Source: Prevotella sp. (lineage in GTDB: Bacteria; Bacteroidota; Bacteroidia; Bacteroidales; Bacteroidaceae). From it: DNA of 34,971 nucleotides. The notes under the pieces are model-generated. The model was given only the letters and a program-made list of their open reading frames with translations. It searched no databases and had not been told where the DNA came from. How positions within the stretch are numbered: position 1 is the stretch's first letter; each line of letters starts with the position of its first letter. A program made the position numbers and the translations under genes. Shown here piece after piece: positions 17,425-23,821 of this stretch. Location of the stretch: assembly GCA_017651265.1 (NCBI GenBank), contig JAGCDO010000016.1, positions 1 through 34,971 of the forward strand. Direction: 5' to 3'.

Positions 17425-18942
17425 TTAGTCGTTGATTCGTAAAAATGCCTTAGGCAGATAAGTAATGATGTCGCCCGCCGTCATACTCTCCTGTCCCAGT
17501 TCCTTGGCGGCGATGTCACCAGCCAATCCATGCAGATACATACCAGTCATGCAGGCATCTTCATGCTTATAACCTCTGGCAAGAAGACCCGTAATGATGC
17601 CTGCCAGCACATCCCCGCTTCCTGCCGTGGCCATACCTGCATTTCCCGTACTGTTGAACACAACATGTCCGTTGGGCATGCAGAGGGCAGAGTAATGACC
17701 TTTGAGGATGATGTATGCCTGAAGGTGTTCTGCCAGGTCGCGAGCTTTTGACAGACGTTCGAAAGAGTCGGCACAACTGGCTCCATTCAGGCGATCGAAC
17801 TCTTTAGGATGCGGCGTCATAATCATGTTCTTGGGCAGTTGTTGCAGCCAGGCACGATGGTTGGCCAGGATATTCAGGGCATCTGCATCAAGAACAGTAG
17901 GACATTGTGAACGGCGGATCTGTGAGATCAGTGCGATGGCGGTATTCTCCTGCTGACGCAGTCCGGGACCGATACATATGGCATCAACATCCTCTGTGTC
18001 AACCGTATCGCTGAAATACAGTTCGTCGCGGTCGATATCCATGATGGCCTCGGGAATGCTGATTTGCAAGATATCATTGTTACGTCGAGGAGTATGCACG
18101 ATGGCTTTTCCTACGCCAGAACGCAAACAGGCCTTGGTAGCAAGGATGGCTGCCCCAGCCATTCCATAGCTGCCTGCGATGATCAAGGCTGTTCCCATAT
18201 CACCTTTATGGGCAAACGCATTCCGATGAAGCATACGCGAACGGATATCGCTCTCGTCGATCACCGTATACTGCGCCTCGATCTTCTTCATACCCTCCTT
18301 GCTCAGGCGGATGTCGAGCACGCGCAACTTTCCGATGAACTGCTGGTTCTCGGCGAAGAGGAAGGCCAGCTTTTTCTGTTGAAGGGTCAGCGTAACATCG
18401 GCTTTGATGATATTCGCCCTGACATTGTAAGTATTGTCCTCGGTCATCAGTCCTGACGGGACGTCAATGCTGACAATCTCCGCCGGCGACTGGTTGATGT
18501 ATTTCACCAGTGATGAGAAACCTCCGGCCAAAGGTTTGTTCAGACCGGAGCCGAATAGACCGTCAACCACCAGTGTCGAGGCAGTGAGCTGGGGCGGGTC
18601 GAACTCGTCCCTTACCTCAAAGAACTCCTTAATCTTTCGACTGTCAATCACCCGTTGGCGGTTAATGGCACAGTCTTCAGAAAGTTTCCCGTTGATATTG
18701 AAAAGATAGACACTAACCTGATAGCCCTGCTCTGCAAGCAGTCGTGCCACAGCCAGTCCGTCACCTCCGTTGTTCCCGGGACCGGCAAACACCACAACGG
18801 GCTTTTCTGCCGACCAGGTGTCGGTGATGGCACGTGTCAACACTTTGGCAGCCCGCTCCATCAGGTCGATGGAACGTATCGGTTCATGCTCGATCGTATA
18901 ATGGTCAAGTTCATGAATCTGCGCACTAGTGAATATTTTCAT
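17425..18942 (-). CDS. nnr: Bifunctional NAD(P)H-hydrate epimerase / ADP-dependent dehydratase
   Basis: 505 residues. It repairs damaged (hydrated) NADH and NADPH: the N-terminal YjeF_N domain epimerises R to S hydrate and the C-terminal ribokinase-like YjeF_C domain dehydrates the S form. Seen: VVFAGPGNNGGDGLAVARLL (about 46-65) in the epimerase domain; in the dehydratase domain GSYGMAGAAILA, ICIGPGL, the nucleotide motif MTPHPKEFDRL, and the GSGDVLAGIITGLLARG anion hole near the C-terminus. I moved the start from the longest ATG (18984) to 18942, because the protein then begins MKIFTSAQIHELD as in relatives, and because a -7 box lies at 18948-18955. It is the first gene of the tat operon. 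Confidence 0.93.
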   Translation of the reverse strand: MKIFTSAQIHELDHYTIEHEPIRSIDLMERAAKVLTRAITDTWSAEKPVVVFAGPGNNGGDGLAVARLLAEQGYQVSVYLFNINGKLSEDCAINRQRVIDSRKIKEFFEVRDEFDPPQLTASTLVVDGLFGSGLNKPLAGGFSSLVKYINQSPAEIVSIDVPSGLMTEDNTYNVRANIIKADVTLTLQQKKLAFLFAENQQFIGKLRVLDIRLSKEGMKKIEAQYTVIDESDIRSRMLHRNAFAHKGDMGTALIIAGSYGMAGAAILATKACLRSGVGKAIVHTPRRNNDILQISIPEAIMDIDRDELYFSDTVDTEDVDAICIGPGLRQQENTAIALISQIRRSQCPTVLDADALNILANHRAWLQQLPKNMIMTPHPKEFDRLNGASCADSFERLSKARDLAEHLQAYIILKGHYSALCMPNGHVVFNSTGNAGMATAGSGDVLAGIITGLLARGYKHEDACMTGMYLHGLAGDIAAKELGQESMTAGDIITYLPKAFLRIND

Positions 18943-18947
18943 CCCTG

Positions 18948-18955
18948 CAAAAATA
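18948..18955 (-). promoter_or_regulatory. -7 box immediately upstream of nnr
   Basis: Minus-strand TATTTTTG fits TAnnTTTG but ends only 5 bp before the ATG at 18942, so the mRNA would be leaderless or nearly so. No good -33 box is seen. Confidence 0.4.
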
Positions 18956-19072
18956 CAAAATAAATAGTAATAAGCGGTCATCAATGCCCATTTTTTTCAT
19001 TTTTTGTTACTTAAATACTTATATTTACTCCTAATAAAGAATAAAATGAACGTAAAGTTGCTGAATATTGAT

Positions 19073-19080
19073 TACTTTTG
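19073..19080 (+). promoter_or_regulatory. -7 box for the small exported protein
   Basis: TACTTTTG, 28 bp before ATG 19109; no clear -33 box. Confidence 0.4.
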
Positions 19081-19108
19081 TGCTCGATAAACCAATAATG
19101 AATATCAG

Positions 19109-19507
19109 ATGAAAAAGTTGATGATTATTTCCGGACTGCTGTTGATGTGCTTGTCAGGACGGGCTCAGACAAATGGAACAGAGGAGTTTCTTGATAGGTA
19201 TACGGCACTGGTTGTGATGGTAGAATCAGAGGATGTCATCTCTGATGAGGAGTATAAGGTATTCTCTGCCAAGTACGAACAGCTTACCAGCGAGTATCAT
19301 GAAACCTACAAACCTTTGATGACCGACGATCAGCTTTCCAAATATACGGAGCTGCGTACACGTTATCATAAGAAAGTGGCTAACAGAACAGCTGAGAAGG
19401 TTGGTGAGAAGATCGACAGTGTCGGTCAGAACGTTATCAAGGGCGTGAAAAAGACAGGCTCAAAGGTAAGCGGATTCCTTAAAGGCATCTTCAGTAGGAA
19501 GGATTGA
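19109..19507 (+). CDS. Small exported helical protein, unknown function
   Basis: 132 residues. A signal peptide (residues 1-19, cleavage near GRAQ) is followed by an acidic, helix-rich region (FLDRYTALVVMVESED and beyond, with regular charged heptad-like patterns) and a basic C-terminus GFLKGIFSRKD that could form an amphipathic helix at the membrane. It resembles small Bacteroidales proteins annotated only as DUFs (possibly DUF6565; I cannot confirm). Probably monocistronic; a 254-bp gap follows. Confidence 0.7.
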   Translation: MKKLMIISGLLLMCLSGRAQTNGTEEFLDRYTALVVMVESEDVISDEEYKVFSAKYEQLTSEYHETYKPLMTDDQLSKYTELRTRYHKKVANRTAEKVGEKIDSVGQNVIKGVKKTGSKVSGFLKGIFSRKD

Positions 19508-19572
19508 TAAATTCTCCTGTTTGATGAAACAAAATCATTCGTTTTTCTTCTCACTCACATAGAATTTCCGTA

Positions 19573-19740
19573 AATTTGGCTTCGCCTAAGTTACTTTGTC
19601 TCGGCAAAAAAAGAAAGAAGTTTCTTTGTTTTGCGCTCGACTTTTCGTAACTCTTCCTTTGGAGAAGTTACCCGTCTCGGAAATGCAAAGAAAAACTCGT
19701 TTTCCTTTTGCATTTCACTCGACTTTTCGTAACTTTGCAC
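19573..19740 (+). repeat. Hairpin-rich repeat element with built-in promoter, copy 1
   Basis: Two half-units, each with a CTCGG...CTCGA frame around an inverted A/T-rich hairpin. Half-unit 1 pairs 19605-19618 with 19621-19634; half-unit 2 pairs GAAATGCAAAG... with ...CTTTTGCATTTC (19680-19716). The element ends in CGTAACTTTGCAC, the hpt-adk -7 box. It is related by sequence to copy 2 at 31948-32118. Antisense reading gives a peptide with EELRKVERKTKK, a repeat by-product. Confidence 0.65.
19707..19737 (+). promoter_or_regulatory. hpt-adk promoter inside the repeat element
   Basis: -33 TTTG (19707-19710), 19 bp, -7 TAACTTTG (19730-19737). The -33 box lies in the right arm of the second hairpin of the repeat. 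Leader about 20 nt to ATG 19762. Confidence 0.7.
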
Positions 19741-19761
19741 AAATAAAGTGAAGATACGATT

Positions 19762-20886
19762 ATGAGTGTAGTAAAAATCAAAGACAAGACGTTCAGAACG
19801 TCTATCTCGGAGAAAGAAATCAAAGAGCGCATTCAGGCCGTTGCCGATCGCATTAACCATGACATGGCCGACAAGAATCCGCTGTTCTTGGCGGTGCTGA
19901 ATGGTGCGTTTGTCTTTGCGGCAGATTTGATGAGAATGATTACGATTCCTTGCGAGATCTCGTTTGTCAAGCTCGCCTCTTATCAAGGTACCACTTCTAC
20001 AGGGAAGATCACCGAGGTGATGGGCATCAACGAGGATCTTACCGACCGTACCGTCGTGATTATTGAGGATATCGTGGATACGGGTCTTACCATGAAGCGG
20101 ATGATTGAGAGTCTGGGTACCCGTCATCCCGCTTCCGTACATATCTGTTCCTTGTTGGTGAAGCCCGAGAAGCTGCAGGTTGACCTGAACATCGAGTATG
20201 CCGTCATGGAGATTCCCAATGATTTCATTGTGGGCTATGGTCTTGACTACGACCAGCAGGGACGTAACCTGCCGGATATCTATACACTTGTAAATGAAGA
20301 CAATCTTAAGAATATGAAGAATATTGTGATTTTCGGTGCCCCTGGATCAGGAAAGGGGACACAGAGTGACTTGTTAATCGAGAAGTACGGACTGGGACAT
20401 ATCTCTACAGGTGATGTGCTTCGCAGTGAAATCAAGAAAGGTACGGAGCTGGGAAAGACCGCTGCTTCGTATATCGATAAAGGACAGCTGATTCCCGATG
20501 CACTGATGGTGGATATCCTGGCCAGCGTGTACGACAGCTTCGGCACGGATCATCCCGGTGTGATCTTCGATGGCTTCCCACGTACGATACCGCAGGCTGA
20601 GGCTTTGAAGAAGATGCTCGAGGAGCGTGGTCACCGCATCGCCGCTATGATCGAACTCGATGTTCCAGAGGAGGAATTGATGACGCGTCTGATCAAGCGC
20701 GGACAGGAGAGTGGACGTAGTGACGATAATGCCGAGACCATCAAGAAACGTCTCGATGTATATCACAACCAAACCTCCCCGCTCATCGAGTGGTATGAGA
20801 AGGAAGGCATCCGTCATCATATCAACGGACTGGGTGCGCTCGACCGTATCTCTGGTGATATCCAACAGGTCATCGACCAACTTTAA
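19762..20886 (+). CDS. hpt-adk: Fused hypoxanthine phosphoribosyltransferase - adenylate kinase
   Basis: 374 residues in one uninterrupted frame. Residues 1-177 are a complete HPRT (salvage of hypoxanthine/guanine with PRPP to IMP/GMP), with the PRPP loop [11 protein letters not shown] (acidic pair E102/D103) and the C-terminal [10 protein letters not shown] and DIYTLV. A linker of only about 7 residues follows (NEDNLKN). Residues 185-374 are a complete adenylate kinase (AMP + ATP to 2 ADP): P-loop GAPGSGKGT at 192-200, [16 protein letters not shown], and a short LID with [11 protein letters not shown]. Unfused relatives end HPRT at about residue 177 and begin Adk at the Met equivalent to M185 (ATG 20314), so the fusion looks like simple loss of the hpt stop codon; separate Adk could still be made from that internal ATG. 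obg follows after 8 bp. Confidence 0.93.
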
Positions 20887-20894
20887 TCTTTGCG

Positions 20895-22064
20895 ATGGAG
20901 AGTAATTTCGTCGATTATGTGAAGATCTACTGCCGATCTGGAAAGGGTGGACGTGGATCGATGCACTTGAAACATATTAAGTATAATCCGAATGCCGGTC
21001 CTGATGGCGGTGACGGAGGTAAAGGTGGCAGCGTAATCCTACGCGGCAACCATAACTTCTGGACCCTGCTGCACCTGAAGTACCAGCGACATGTAAAAGC
21101 TGAACATGGTGGTAACGGCGGTAAGGACAAATGTCATGGCACGGATGGTAAGGATGCCTACATCGATGTTCCGTGTGGTACCGTTGTCTATGATGCCGAG
21201 ACAGGAAAGTATGTGTGTGATGTGACCTACGATGGACAGGAGGTGGTGCTGCTGAAAGGCGGTCGTGGCGGACTTGGTAACTTCCAGTTCCGTAGTGCGA
21301 CGAACCAAGCACCGCGTTTTGCTCAGCCCGGAGAGCCGATGCAGGAGATGACGGTCATCCTTGAACTGAAGCTGTTGGCCGATGTGGGTCTTGTAGGTTT
21401 CCCCAATGCGGGGAAGTCAACCTTGCTGTCGGCACTCTCCAACGCCCGTCCGAAGATTGCCAATTACCCGTTCACGACCATGGAACCCTCATTGGGTATC
21501 GTGGGCTACCGTGAAGGAAAATCGTTCGTCATGGCCGATATCCCTGGAATCATTGAAGGTGCCAGTGAAGGTAGAGGACTGGGCTTGCGTTTTCTTCGTC
21601 ACATCGAACGCAACTCACTGCTGCTGTTCATGGTACCGGGAGATACGGATGATATCAAGAAGGAGTATGAGATACTGCTGAATGAACTGCAGCAGTTCAA
21701 TCCGGAGATGCTTGACAAGCAAAGGGTTCTAGCGGTGACCAAATGTGATCTGCTCGACGAGGAACTGATCGACATGCTTAGGGATACCTTACCAGATGAC
21801 CTTCCCGTGGTCTTTATCTCTGCCGTGACAGGCTATGGGTTGAATGACTTGAAAGATATCCTGTGGGCAGAGCTGAACAGTGAAAGCAACAAACTGAAGG
21901 GTATCACAGCAGAGGATACACTGGTACATCGCGACAAGGATATGCAGCGCTTCACGGAAGAACTGAGAGCGGAAGGCGAGGACGAAATCCTGTATGTGGA
22001 GGAAGAGGAAGACGATGATATCGAGGAACTCGAGGACTACGAACTGGAGGATATCGAAGACTAA
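20895..22064 (+). CDS. obg: GTPase Obg
   Basis: 389 residues; essential ribosome-assembly/stress GTPase. The glycine-rich Obg fold occupies residues 1-158 ([26 protein letters not shown]). The G domain has G1 GFPNAGKST (about 166-174), the switch I Thr in PFTT, G3 DIPG, G4 TKCD and G5 SAV. The C-terminus is a strongly acidic tail of about 30 residues ([12 protein letters not shown]...), and there is no OCT domain. It follows the hpt-adk fusion by 8 bp and is almost certainly cotranscribed with it. Confidence 0.97.
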
Positions 22065-22348: not shown

Positions 22349-23533
22349 TTAATGGTGGAAGAGTCTTACGCCCGTGAAGGTCATGGCAATGCCATATTTG
22401 TCGCAAGTCATGATGACATGATCATCGCGAACTGAACCGCCAGCTTGTGCGATATACTCCACACCGCTCTTATGAGCACGCTCCACATTGTCGCCGAAGG
22501 GGAAGAATGCATCAGATCCCAAAGATACCTTTGTGTTCTGTGCAATCCATGCTTTCTTTTCCTCACGGGTAAGCACCTCGGGTTTCTCCTTGAAGAATTT
22601 CTGCCACTCGCCCTCTGCCAGTACATCATCATGGTCGTCAGAGATATAGATATCGATGGTGTTGTCGCGGTCAGCCCTGCGGATGCCATCAATGAACGGA
22701 AGTGCCATCACCTTCGGATGCTGGCGCAGCCACCAGATATCAGCCTTGTTTCCTGCCAGACGGGTGCAGTGGATACGACTCTGCTGACCAGCACCGATAC
22801 CGATGGCTTGTCCGTCCTTGACATAGCAGACAGAGTTACTCTGTGTATATTTCAGGGTGATGAGTGCAATGATCAGGTCGCGCTTGGCATCAGCGGGGAA
22901 TACCTTGTTATCAGTGGGGATGTTCTCGAACAATGCGGGATCATCCAGTTTGATCTCATTTCGTCCCTGCTCGAAGGTGATGCCGAACACCTGCTTGCGC
23001 TCCACTGGCTCAGGCACATAGTTGGGGTCGATCTGAATCACATTATAAGTTCCCTTGCGCTTCTCACGGAGAATCTGCAAAGCCTCTTCGGTATAACCAG
23101 GAGCAATCACACCGTCGGAAACCTCACGCTTCAGCAACGTGGCGGTAACTGCATCACAGGTATCCGACAAAGCAACGAAGTCACCATAGGAGCTCATACG
23201 GTCGGCACCACGGGCACGAGCATAGGCACAAGCAATAGCCGACTCATCCAGTCCTTTAATGTCATCAACGAAATAGATCTTCTTCAGGGTATCGCTCAGG
23301 GGAAGTCCTACAGCAGCACCTGCAGGTGACACGTGCTTGAAGCTGGCGGCTGATGGCAGACCGGTAGCAGCCTTCATCTCCTTGACAAGCTGCCAGCTGT
23401 TCAGCGCATCCAGGAAATTGATATAGCCGGGACGACCGTTTAATACTTCGAGGGGTAATTCTCCTTCCGTCATGAAAATACGTGAAGGTTTTTGGTTGGG
23501 ATTACATCCGTACTTCAGTGCTAACTCTTTCAT
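22349..23533 (-). CDS. purH: AICAR formyltransferase (PurH transformylase domain only)
   Basis: 394 residues. It transfers a formyl group from 10-formyl-tetrahydrofolate to AICAR, the ninth step of purine synthesis. The catalytic Lys-His pair is seen in FKHVSPAGAAVG (K66/H67), and the substrate-site segment GIGAGQQSRIHCTRLAG (about 255-271) is intact. The N-terminal MGS-like IMP cyclohydrolase domain of bifunctional PurH is absent, so ring closure must be done by another gene. I chose ATG 23533 over the 29-codon longer frame because the promoter at 23562-23592 lies inside that extension and the family starts here. The small basic protein gene follows on the same strand. Confidence 0.92.
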   Translation of the reverse strand: MKELALKYGCNPNQKPSRIFMTEGELPLEVLNGRPGYINFLDALNSWQLVKEMKAATGLPSAASFKHVSPAGAAVGLPLSDTLKKIYFVDDIKGLDESAIACAYARARGADRMSSYGDFVALSDTCDAVTATLLKREVSDGVIAPGYTEEALQILREKRKGTYNVIQIDPNYVPEPVERKQVFGITFEQGRNEIKLDDPALFENIPTDNKVFPADAKRDLIIALITLKYTQSNSVCYVKDGQAIGIGAGQQSRIHCTRLAGNKADIWWLRQHPKVMALPFIDGIRRADRDNTIDIYISDDHDDVLAEGEWQKFFKEKPEVLTREEKKAWIAQNTKVSLGSDAFFPFGDNVERAHKSGVEYIAQAGGSVRDDHVIMTCDKYGIAMTFTGVRLFHH

Positions 23534-23561
23534 CTTTTCTATTGGGATATGAATTTGGGTA

Positions 23562-23592
23562 CAAAGGTACGAATAAGTGAGAACAATACAAA
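23562..23592 (-). promoter_or_regulatory. purH promoter
   Basis: Minus strand: -33 TTTG (23592-23589), 19 bp, -7 TACCTTTG (23569-23562). Decides the purH start at 23533. Confidence 0.75.
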
Positions 23593-23821
23593 GAAAAATA
23601 AGTGTAATTGCGTGAAACAACGCGAAGATTTACTTGAAATGTTAAATATTGAATAAAAAGGGTATTAAAAAACGTGAACGCACACAGTTGCCCTTTTACG
23701 TGAAACATATCCTCTAAGTGCCTATTATATTGCAAGAAAAGAGAAATGTGGGTGACAAAAACCGACATTTTGGTATATCCAAAAAGATGTAAACCCACTT
23801 TTATGCCCCACCTTTTTTTAT
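23593..23821. other. Intergenic region with folded element
   Basis: No reading frame I trust. It contains a nested inverted repeat: GTGGGT (23748-23753) with ACCCAC (23793-23798), enclosing TTTTGG-TATAT-CCAAAA (23768-23784), followed by TTTT. A motif CTAAGTGCCTATTA near 23714 recurs as TTAGGTGCCTATTT near 23859 in the nlpC leader. Confidence 0.4.

Follow-up and report, generated by a model that had tools for sequence, protein, structure and literature searches.

In infB and clpB, an internal in-frame start gives a C-terminal product beside the full-length protein. Hypoxanthine phosphoribosyltransferase (HPRT) and adenylate kinase (Adk) have been described in a single chain in Zobellia galactanivorans, whose dual-domain HGPRT/adenylate kinase (UniProt G0LC40) was expressed and assayed (PMC7326950). 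For that work a synthetic gene encoding an N-terminally tagged protein was expressed in E. coli. It is mainly a homodimer, its two parts are joined by the linker REVYQLNQKH, and the one purified chain has both hypoxanthine/guanine phosphoribosyltransferase and adenylate kinase activity, the Adk turnover being 0.07–0.16 per s (PMC7326950). According to its authors, no other protein of this type had been described, and the available parts of their paper do not mention an internal Adk start (PMC7326950). A literature search covering the fusion as well as internal starts, judged on titles and abstracts, found the fusion only in that paper.

The window, i.e., the whole stretch of DNA that was analysed, comprises 34,971 nucleotides from Prevotella sp. 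(contig JAGCDO010000016.1 of assembly GCA_017651265.1). On its + strand, positions 19762–20886 form a single ORF of 374 amino acids, stop-free up to 20884–20886 (Table 1). This gene is an HPRT-Adk fusion of the Zobellia kind, and the fusion itself is already known. We propose, with a probability of about 0.62 and on comparative sequence evidence, that the gene yields two proteins, i.e., the 42-kDa HPRT-Adk fusion and a free 21-kDa Adk initiated at the ATG at 20314.

Table 1. Positions of the fused gene, its parts and neighbouring elements in the window.
Feature	Position	Strand	Basis
TAnnTTTG box (−7-type Bacteroidetes promoter-like), 24 bases before the HPRT ATG	19730–19737	+	pattern scan
HPRT part (residues 1–177)	19762–20292	+	TIGR01203 and PF00156 above cut-off
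Linker NEDNLKN (7 residues)	20293–20313	+	stop and spacer at this place in split relatives
ATG of the Adk start (Met185), kept in the fusion as a proposed site of internal initiation	20314–20316	+	retention across fused loci; start-like context
Adenylate kinase part (residues 185–374, short-lid type) with stop	20314–20886	+	NF001381 and PF00406 above cut-off
Adk codons; stop codon	20314–20883; 20884–20886	+	codon arithmetic
Obg GTPase gene, 8 bases downstream of the fusion	20895–22064	+	PF01018

The HPRT domain is full and N-terminal (Pribosyltran PF00156 at residues 19–163; NCBIfam HGPRTase TIGR01203 at 15–176, 173.3 bits for a cut-off of 150). The Adk domain is full, C-terminal and in the same frame (ADK PF00406 at 190–349; NF001381 at 187–373, 236.2 bits for a cut-off of 187). 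In an alignment of 52 fused proteins, HPRT residues E102, D103, K134 and D162 are invariant, as are the Adk P-loop, R221, DGFPR 270–274, R313, R319, D321, D322 and R330. The active-site residues of both enzymes are thus present in the window fusion, the catalytic roles of the invariant residues being assumed from family knowledge. The initial annotation had described one open frame with a full HPRT and a full Adk joined by about seven residues, an internal ATG at 20314, and intact catalytic motifs indicating a gene that is not decaying. The ORF together with the Pfam and NCBIfam matches bears out the first point, codon arithmetic the second, and the invariance of the key residues of both enzymes agrees with the third.

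The window fusion resembles that of Zobellia in having HPRT N-terminal and Adk C-terminal in one chain of about 42 kDa, both active sites and a short polar linker (10 residues in Zobellia, 7 here). It is 44–47% identical to 23 aligned fusions of one flavobacterial family. Two loci of one genus code (L203 and L243, g213) carry the same ten letters, REVYQLNQKH, followed by Met, and their genus is presumably Zobellia. The genes and their order are also those of Bacteroidales hpt-adk-obg, and many of the sampled loci have all three on the same strand. In split hpt-adk pairs a stop and a spacer lie between the two genes (median 42 bases in 105 split loci of the Prevotella group, whose selection favoured frame 0). 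As in infB and clpB, an in-frame internal ATG with a start-like context would give a complete downstream domain. Unlike in these, the internal product is here a predicted one, and the short product would correspond to an entire enzyme, which has a gene of its own in relatives.

The structure predicted from the 52 fused proteins has a mean pLDDT of 87.1, with residues 74–79 below 50, and a pTM of 0.55, which makes the mutual orientation of the HPRT and Adk parts uncertain. Met185 is predicted to lie between the linker helix (179–184) and the first Adk strand (187–192), outside the strand. The pattern TAnnTTTG, which we take to be the −7-type Bacteroidetes promoter consensus, was found at just 19073, 19571 and 19730 in a + strand scan of about 19000–21000, and is absent on that strand between the 19730 box and the Adk ATG; the box is weak by itself because the + strand of the whole window has 17 matches. 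A 17-base direct repeat, ctcgacttttcgtaact, is seen by eye upstream of the gene at 19636–19652 and 19718–19734, the second copy overlapping the box at 19730. Near the fusion lies another purine gene on the − strand (22349–23620), with AICARFT as its sole Pfam match (PF01808, profile 71–311). The − strand gene at 17425–18984 combines YjeF_N and Carb_kinase in one protein, the usual NAD(P)H-hydrate epimerase/dehydratase.

The window comes from a draft assembly (69 contigs, 94% complete), and the deletion of a stop codon by an assembly or sequencing error could be thought of. However, the same open fusion is found at 99, 98 and 94% identity in three other genomes (G110, G767 and G904), which excludes an assembly slip, and the frame is open in 41 distinct Prevotella loci; an error is thus extremely improbable. 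The genome has a single match to the fusion (E ≤ 0.001) and a single PF00406 match (E ≤ 1e-10), i.e., no Adk other than the fusion was found by the latter scan.

In the window's genus, 105 of 398 genomes gave a joined match (E ≤ 1e-115) and at least 36, the window's own included, are fused without a stop; this is a lower bound because long linkers split the match. In a sample of the order (294 genomes), at least eight are joined without a stop, i.e., the window's own, G444, G288, G338, G181, G410, G248 and G026. In one flavobacterial family a joined match (E ≤ 1e-80) is present in 179 of 249 genomes and, among the matches listed, stops occur only in G1142, G987 and G1205. In a smaller phylum sample, 12 of the 19 joined rows of this family have no stop, and the seven with stops all belong to one mixed genus (code g187). 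The genome counts (36/398 and 8/294) rely on stops inside the match, and the fused or split state of loci on stop-to-stop ORFs. The open-frame length of the joined match was rejected as a fusion test: it is misleading, being about 380–600 for split pairs with separate ORFs.

A set of 147 distinct loci from Prevotella and its near relatives contains 41 fused and 106 split ones; this is not a frequency, since a joined match was one of the grounds for including a locus. Their tree requires at least 12 state changes, without separation of gains from losses, of which seven are forced by well-supported branches; shuffled labels give about 36. The alternation of fused and split states in Prevotella is a difference from the Zobellia fusion. 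Side-by-side hpt and adk genes are common in the order, as the initial annotation had supposed. Its view that a single polypeptide is unusual does not hold: such a protein is published from Zobellia (PMC7326950), is common in one flavobacterial family and recurs in the window's genus. The samples of the order, phylum, genus and flavobacterial family also rule out a fusion unique to the strain or genus, and the present gene adds Prevotella to the known HPRT-Adk kind. In one draft genome, an apparent HPRT-Adk-Obg triple fusion was observed (L260, G944:C142, 1529–3889 reverse complement, a frame of 787 residues).

The retained internal Adk start, unlike the fusion itself, is new here. The ATG is kept in all 41 distinct fused Prevotella loci and in 91 of 92 flavobacterial loci (together 132/133), the exception, L282, having GTT. 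It is lost in 7/7 fusions of other Bacteroidales families, which have V, L or K instead. On the flavobacterial tree (length 22.1), 31, 36 and 32 changes fall in the well-filled linker columns and 7 and 10 in the HPRT tail columns just before the linker, as against a single one in the Met column. On the Prevotella tree (length 3.4), there are 12–17 changes in each of columns −1 to −5 and none in the Met column. However, Asn at +2 has no change in either set, and zero changes are also found for other Met-majority columns (one of three flavobacterial and five of nine Prevotella, the HPRT-start column among these). Conservation of the Met alone is thus insufficient as a proof of an internal start.

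Start determinants measured in Flavobacterium johnsoniae are A at −3, −6, −12 and −13 and low structure from −20 to +20 (PMC6847099). The context of the internal ATG was compared with that of Met codons elsewhere in the frame of each gene (41 vs. 379 sites in Prevotella, 91 vs. 486 in Flavobacteriaceae). The unpaired probability over −20 to +20 is 0.530 at the internal ATG vs. 0.399 at control Met in Prevotella (higher in 38/41) and 0.587 vs. 0.410 in Flavobacteriaceae (higher in 85/91). The upstream GC is 0.277 vs. 0.570 and 0.263 vs. 0.385, respectively. Prevotella has A at −3 in 35 of 41 loci, for 0.21 at control sites; Flavobacteriaceae show little excess at −3 (27/91 vs. 0.21) and no enrichment at −6 (0.48 vs. 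0.47). The true adk starts of split Prevotella-group loci, used as a positive control (105 of 106 scorable), are alike, with an unpaired probability of 0.522, a GC of 0.214 and a frequency of A at −3 of 0.70.

Because polar linkers are A-rich anyway, synonymous codons were redrawn from the same gene with the amino acids fixed. In Prevotella, the eight codons before the ATG have a third-position GC of 0.25, the redraw giving 0.65 (lower in 40/41), and 0.20 vs. 0.35 in the flavobacterial set (lower in 79/92); p-values of such paired tests are not to be taken at face value, since the rows are related and independence is overstated. The control Met sites show no comparable difference. The gain in openness over redrawn codons is modest in Prevotella (0.530 vs. 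0.488; 28/41), and amounts to 0.586 vs. 0.495 (80/92) in the flavobacterial set. The seven ATG-lost fusions have no detectable synonymous GC bias (0.32 vs. 0.28 redrawn; n = 7, little power). Their junctions are also open in absolute terms (0.520 vs. 0.487, higher in 5/7, not significant). The sole test that sets them apart from the ATG-keeping junctions is that of synonymous GC (n = 7). The initiation-like context at the internal ATG goes beyond the requirement of the protein.

The supply of Adk was compared by a PF00406 scan of 40 genomes (E ≤ 1e-10). Each of the 32 genomes with an ATG-keeping fusion has one match. Among the eight with an ATG-lost fusion, six, from three families (G444, G288, G338, G181, G410 and G248), have a separate Adk ORF on another contig; in all six this ORF encodes two Adk domains, and no checked residue of the first domain is altered. 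In the other two, G026 and G1028, the scan gave no match besides the fused Adk, hence the fusion can be the sole Adk. The association fits an internal start that is kept while it is the sole source of free Adk, but it is not absolute.

In the two-product reading, a ribosome starting at 19762 would make the 374-residue bifunctional HPRT-Adk, and one starting at the retained ATG at 20314 the free 190-residue Adk. The fusion would have originated from the loss of a stop between hpt and adk adjoining in one frame, and would have been tolerated because the downstream Adk start still worked. We infer both the use of the internal start in the cell and this route by stop loss; the initial annotation had named a stop loss with additional Adk from the ATG at 20314 as one of two alternatives, and this is the one that is favoured by the comparative evidence. 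It is also rather probable that, across Bacteroidota, fused hpt-adk is a conserved two-product gene in which selection keeps the in-frame Adk start, its loss being largely confined to genomes with a further Adk gene. HPRT makes IMP and GMP, while the substrate of Adk is AMP, so direct product passing is unlikely, and substrate channelling from HPRT to Adk was rejected on these grounds of established enzymology. The two enzymes would thus act side by side on different substrates. The coupling of salvage to nucleotide charging that had been suggested is accordingly weak as direct channelling; co-location or a fixed dosage of HPRT and Adk is conceivable.

Several points tell against the two-product reading: G026 and G1028, the limited weight of Met invariance, the openness in absolute terms of the seven ATG-lost junctions, the modest gain in openness in Prevotella, the flavobacterial frequencies of A at −3 and −6, and the relatedness of the rows, the six ATG-lost genomes with an extra Adk coming from three families. 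Young Prevotella fusions could also keep an AT-rich spacer by history, though the 15-row fused Prevotella clade is as biased (GC 0.23, with 0.67 in the remainder of the gene) as the other fusions (0.27 vs. 0.65). The gene might instead encode an obligate bifunctional enzyme, i.e., the 42-kDa fusion only, as is assumed for Zobellia, with the Met as a linker or strand-edge residue and an advantage from a fixed ratio or place of the enzymes. The absence of both ATG and second Adk match in G026 and G1028 and the frequency of the architecture in one flavobacterial family agree with this. A fused product alone gives no reason to expect the bias in synonymous GC and structure just upstream of the ATG; the seven ATG-lost fusions have no such synonymous bias (small n), and Met185 is modelled before the first Adk strand and not inside it. 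The Adk turnover of the Zobellia chain (0.07–0.16 per s) is moreover low for an adenylate kinase. That recombinant chain, mainly a homodimer with both activities (PMC7326950), is in favour of an obligate enzyme, but it was tagged at the N-terminus and made in E. coli, therefore a free Adk would have escaped purification. Taken as a whole, an obligate bifunctional enzyme seems unlikely.

Neutral stop loss has a somewhat less than even chance. It holds that the fused product is tolerated and nothing special, that the function is served by free Adk made from the internal start, and that the state flickers by point mutation; it is compatible with the two-product reading. The 12 or more state changes among 147 loci, seven of them forced, agree with it. 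Also, in L058, the sister of the fused L057, a stop placed 21 bases ahead of the Adk match splits the pair, and many relatives have hpt and adk in one frame with stops between. On the other hand, a 15-row Prevotella clade and many of the sampled flavobacterial genera are fused, which may point to a persistence exceeding pure flicker.

If the two-product reading is true, recombinant work on the fusion has studied only one of two natural products, and proteins annotated as «bifunctional» may conceal a second product. The retained start would matter more than the fusion itself. With at least 12 changes of state in 147 loci and a flavobacterial family with common fusion, it offers a naturally replicated experiment on the joining of neighbouring genes under protection of an essential downstream protein, in a phylum whose translation initiation does not use Shine-Dalgarno pairing.

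At 18 places in other Bacteroidales families, a single ORF was also observed to encode two Adk domains: 12 (L169–L179 and L199) and 6 (L337–L342), L154 being the same place as L172. A literature search on tandem Adk found no match. The first copy keeps all 22 checked residues in 18/18. In the second copy, the Asp of DGFPR is replaced by Lys or Asn in 17/18, a lid Arg is replaced in 17/18 and the second lid Asp in 18/18, and the P-loop Lys is Arg in 5/18. The second copy looks like a conserved pseudo-adenylate-kinase tail.
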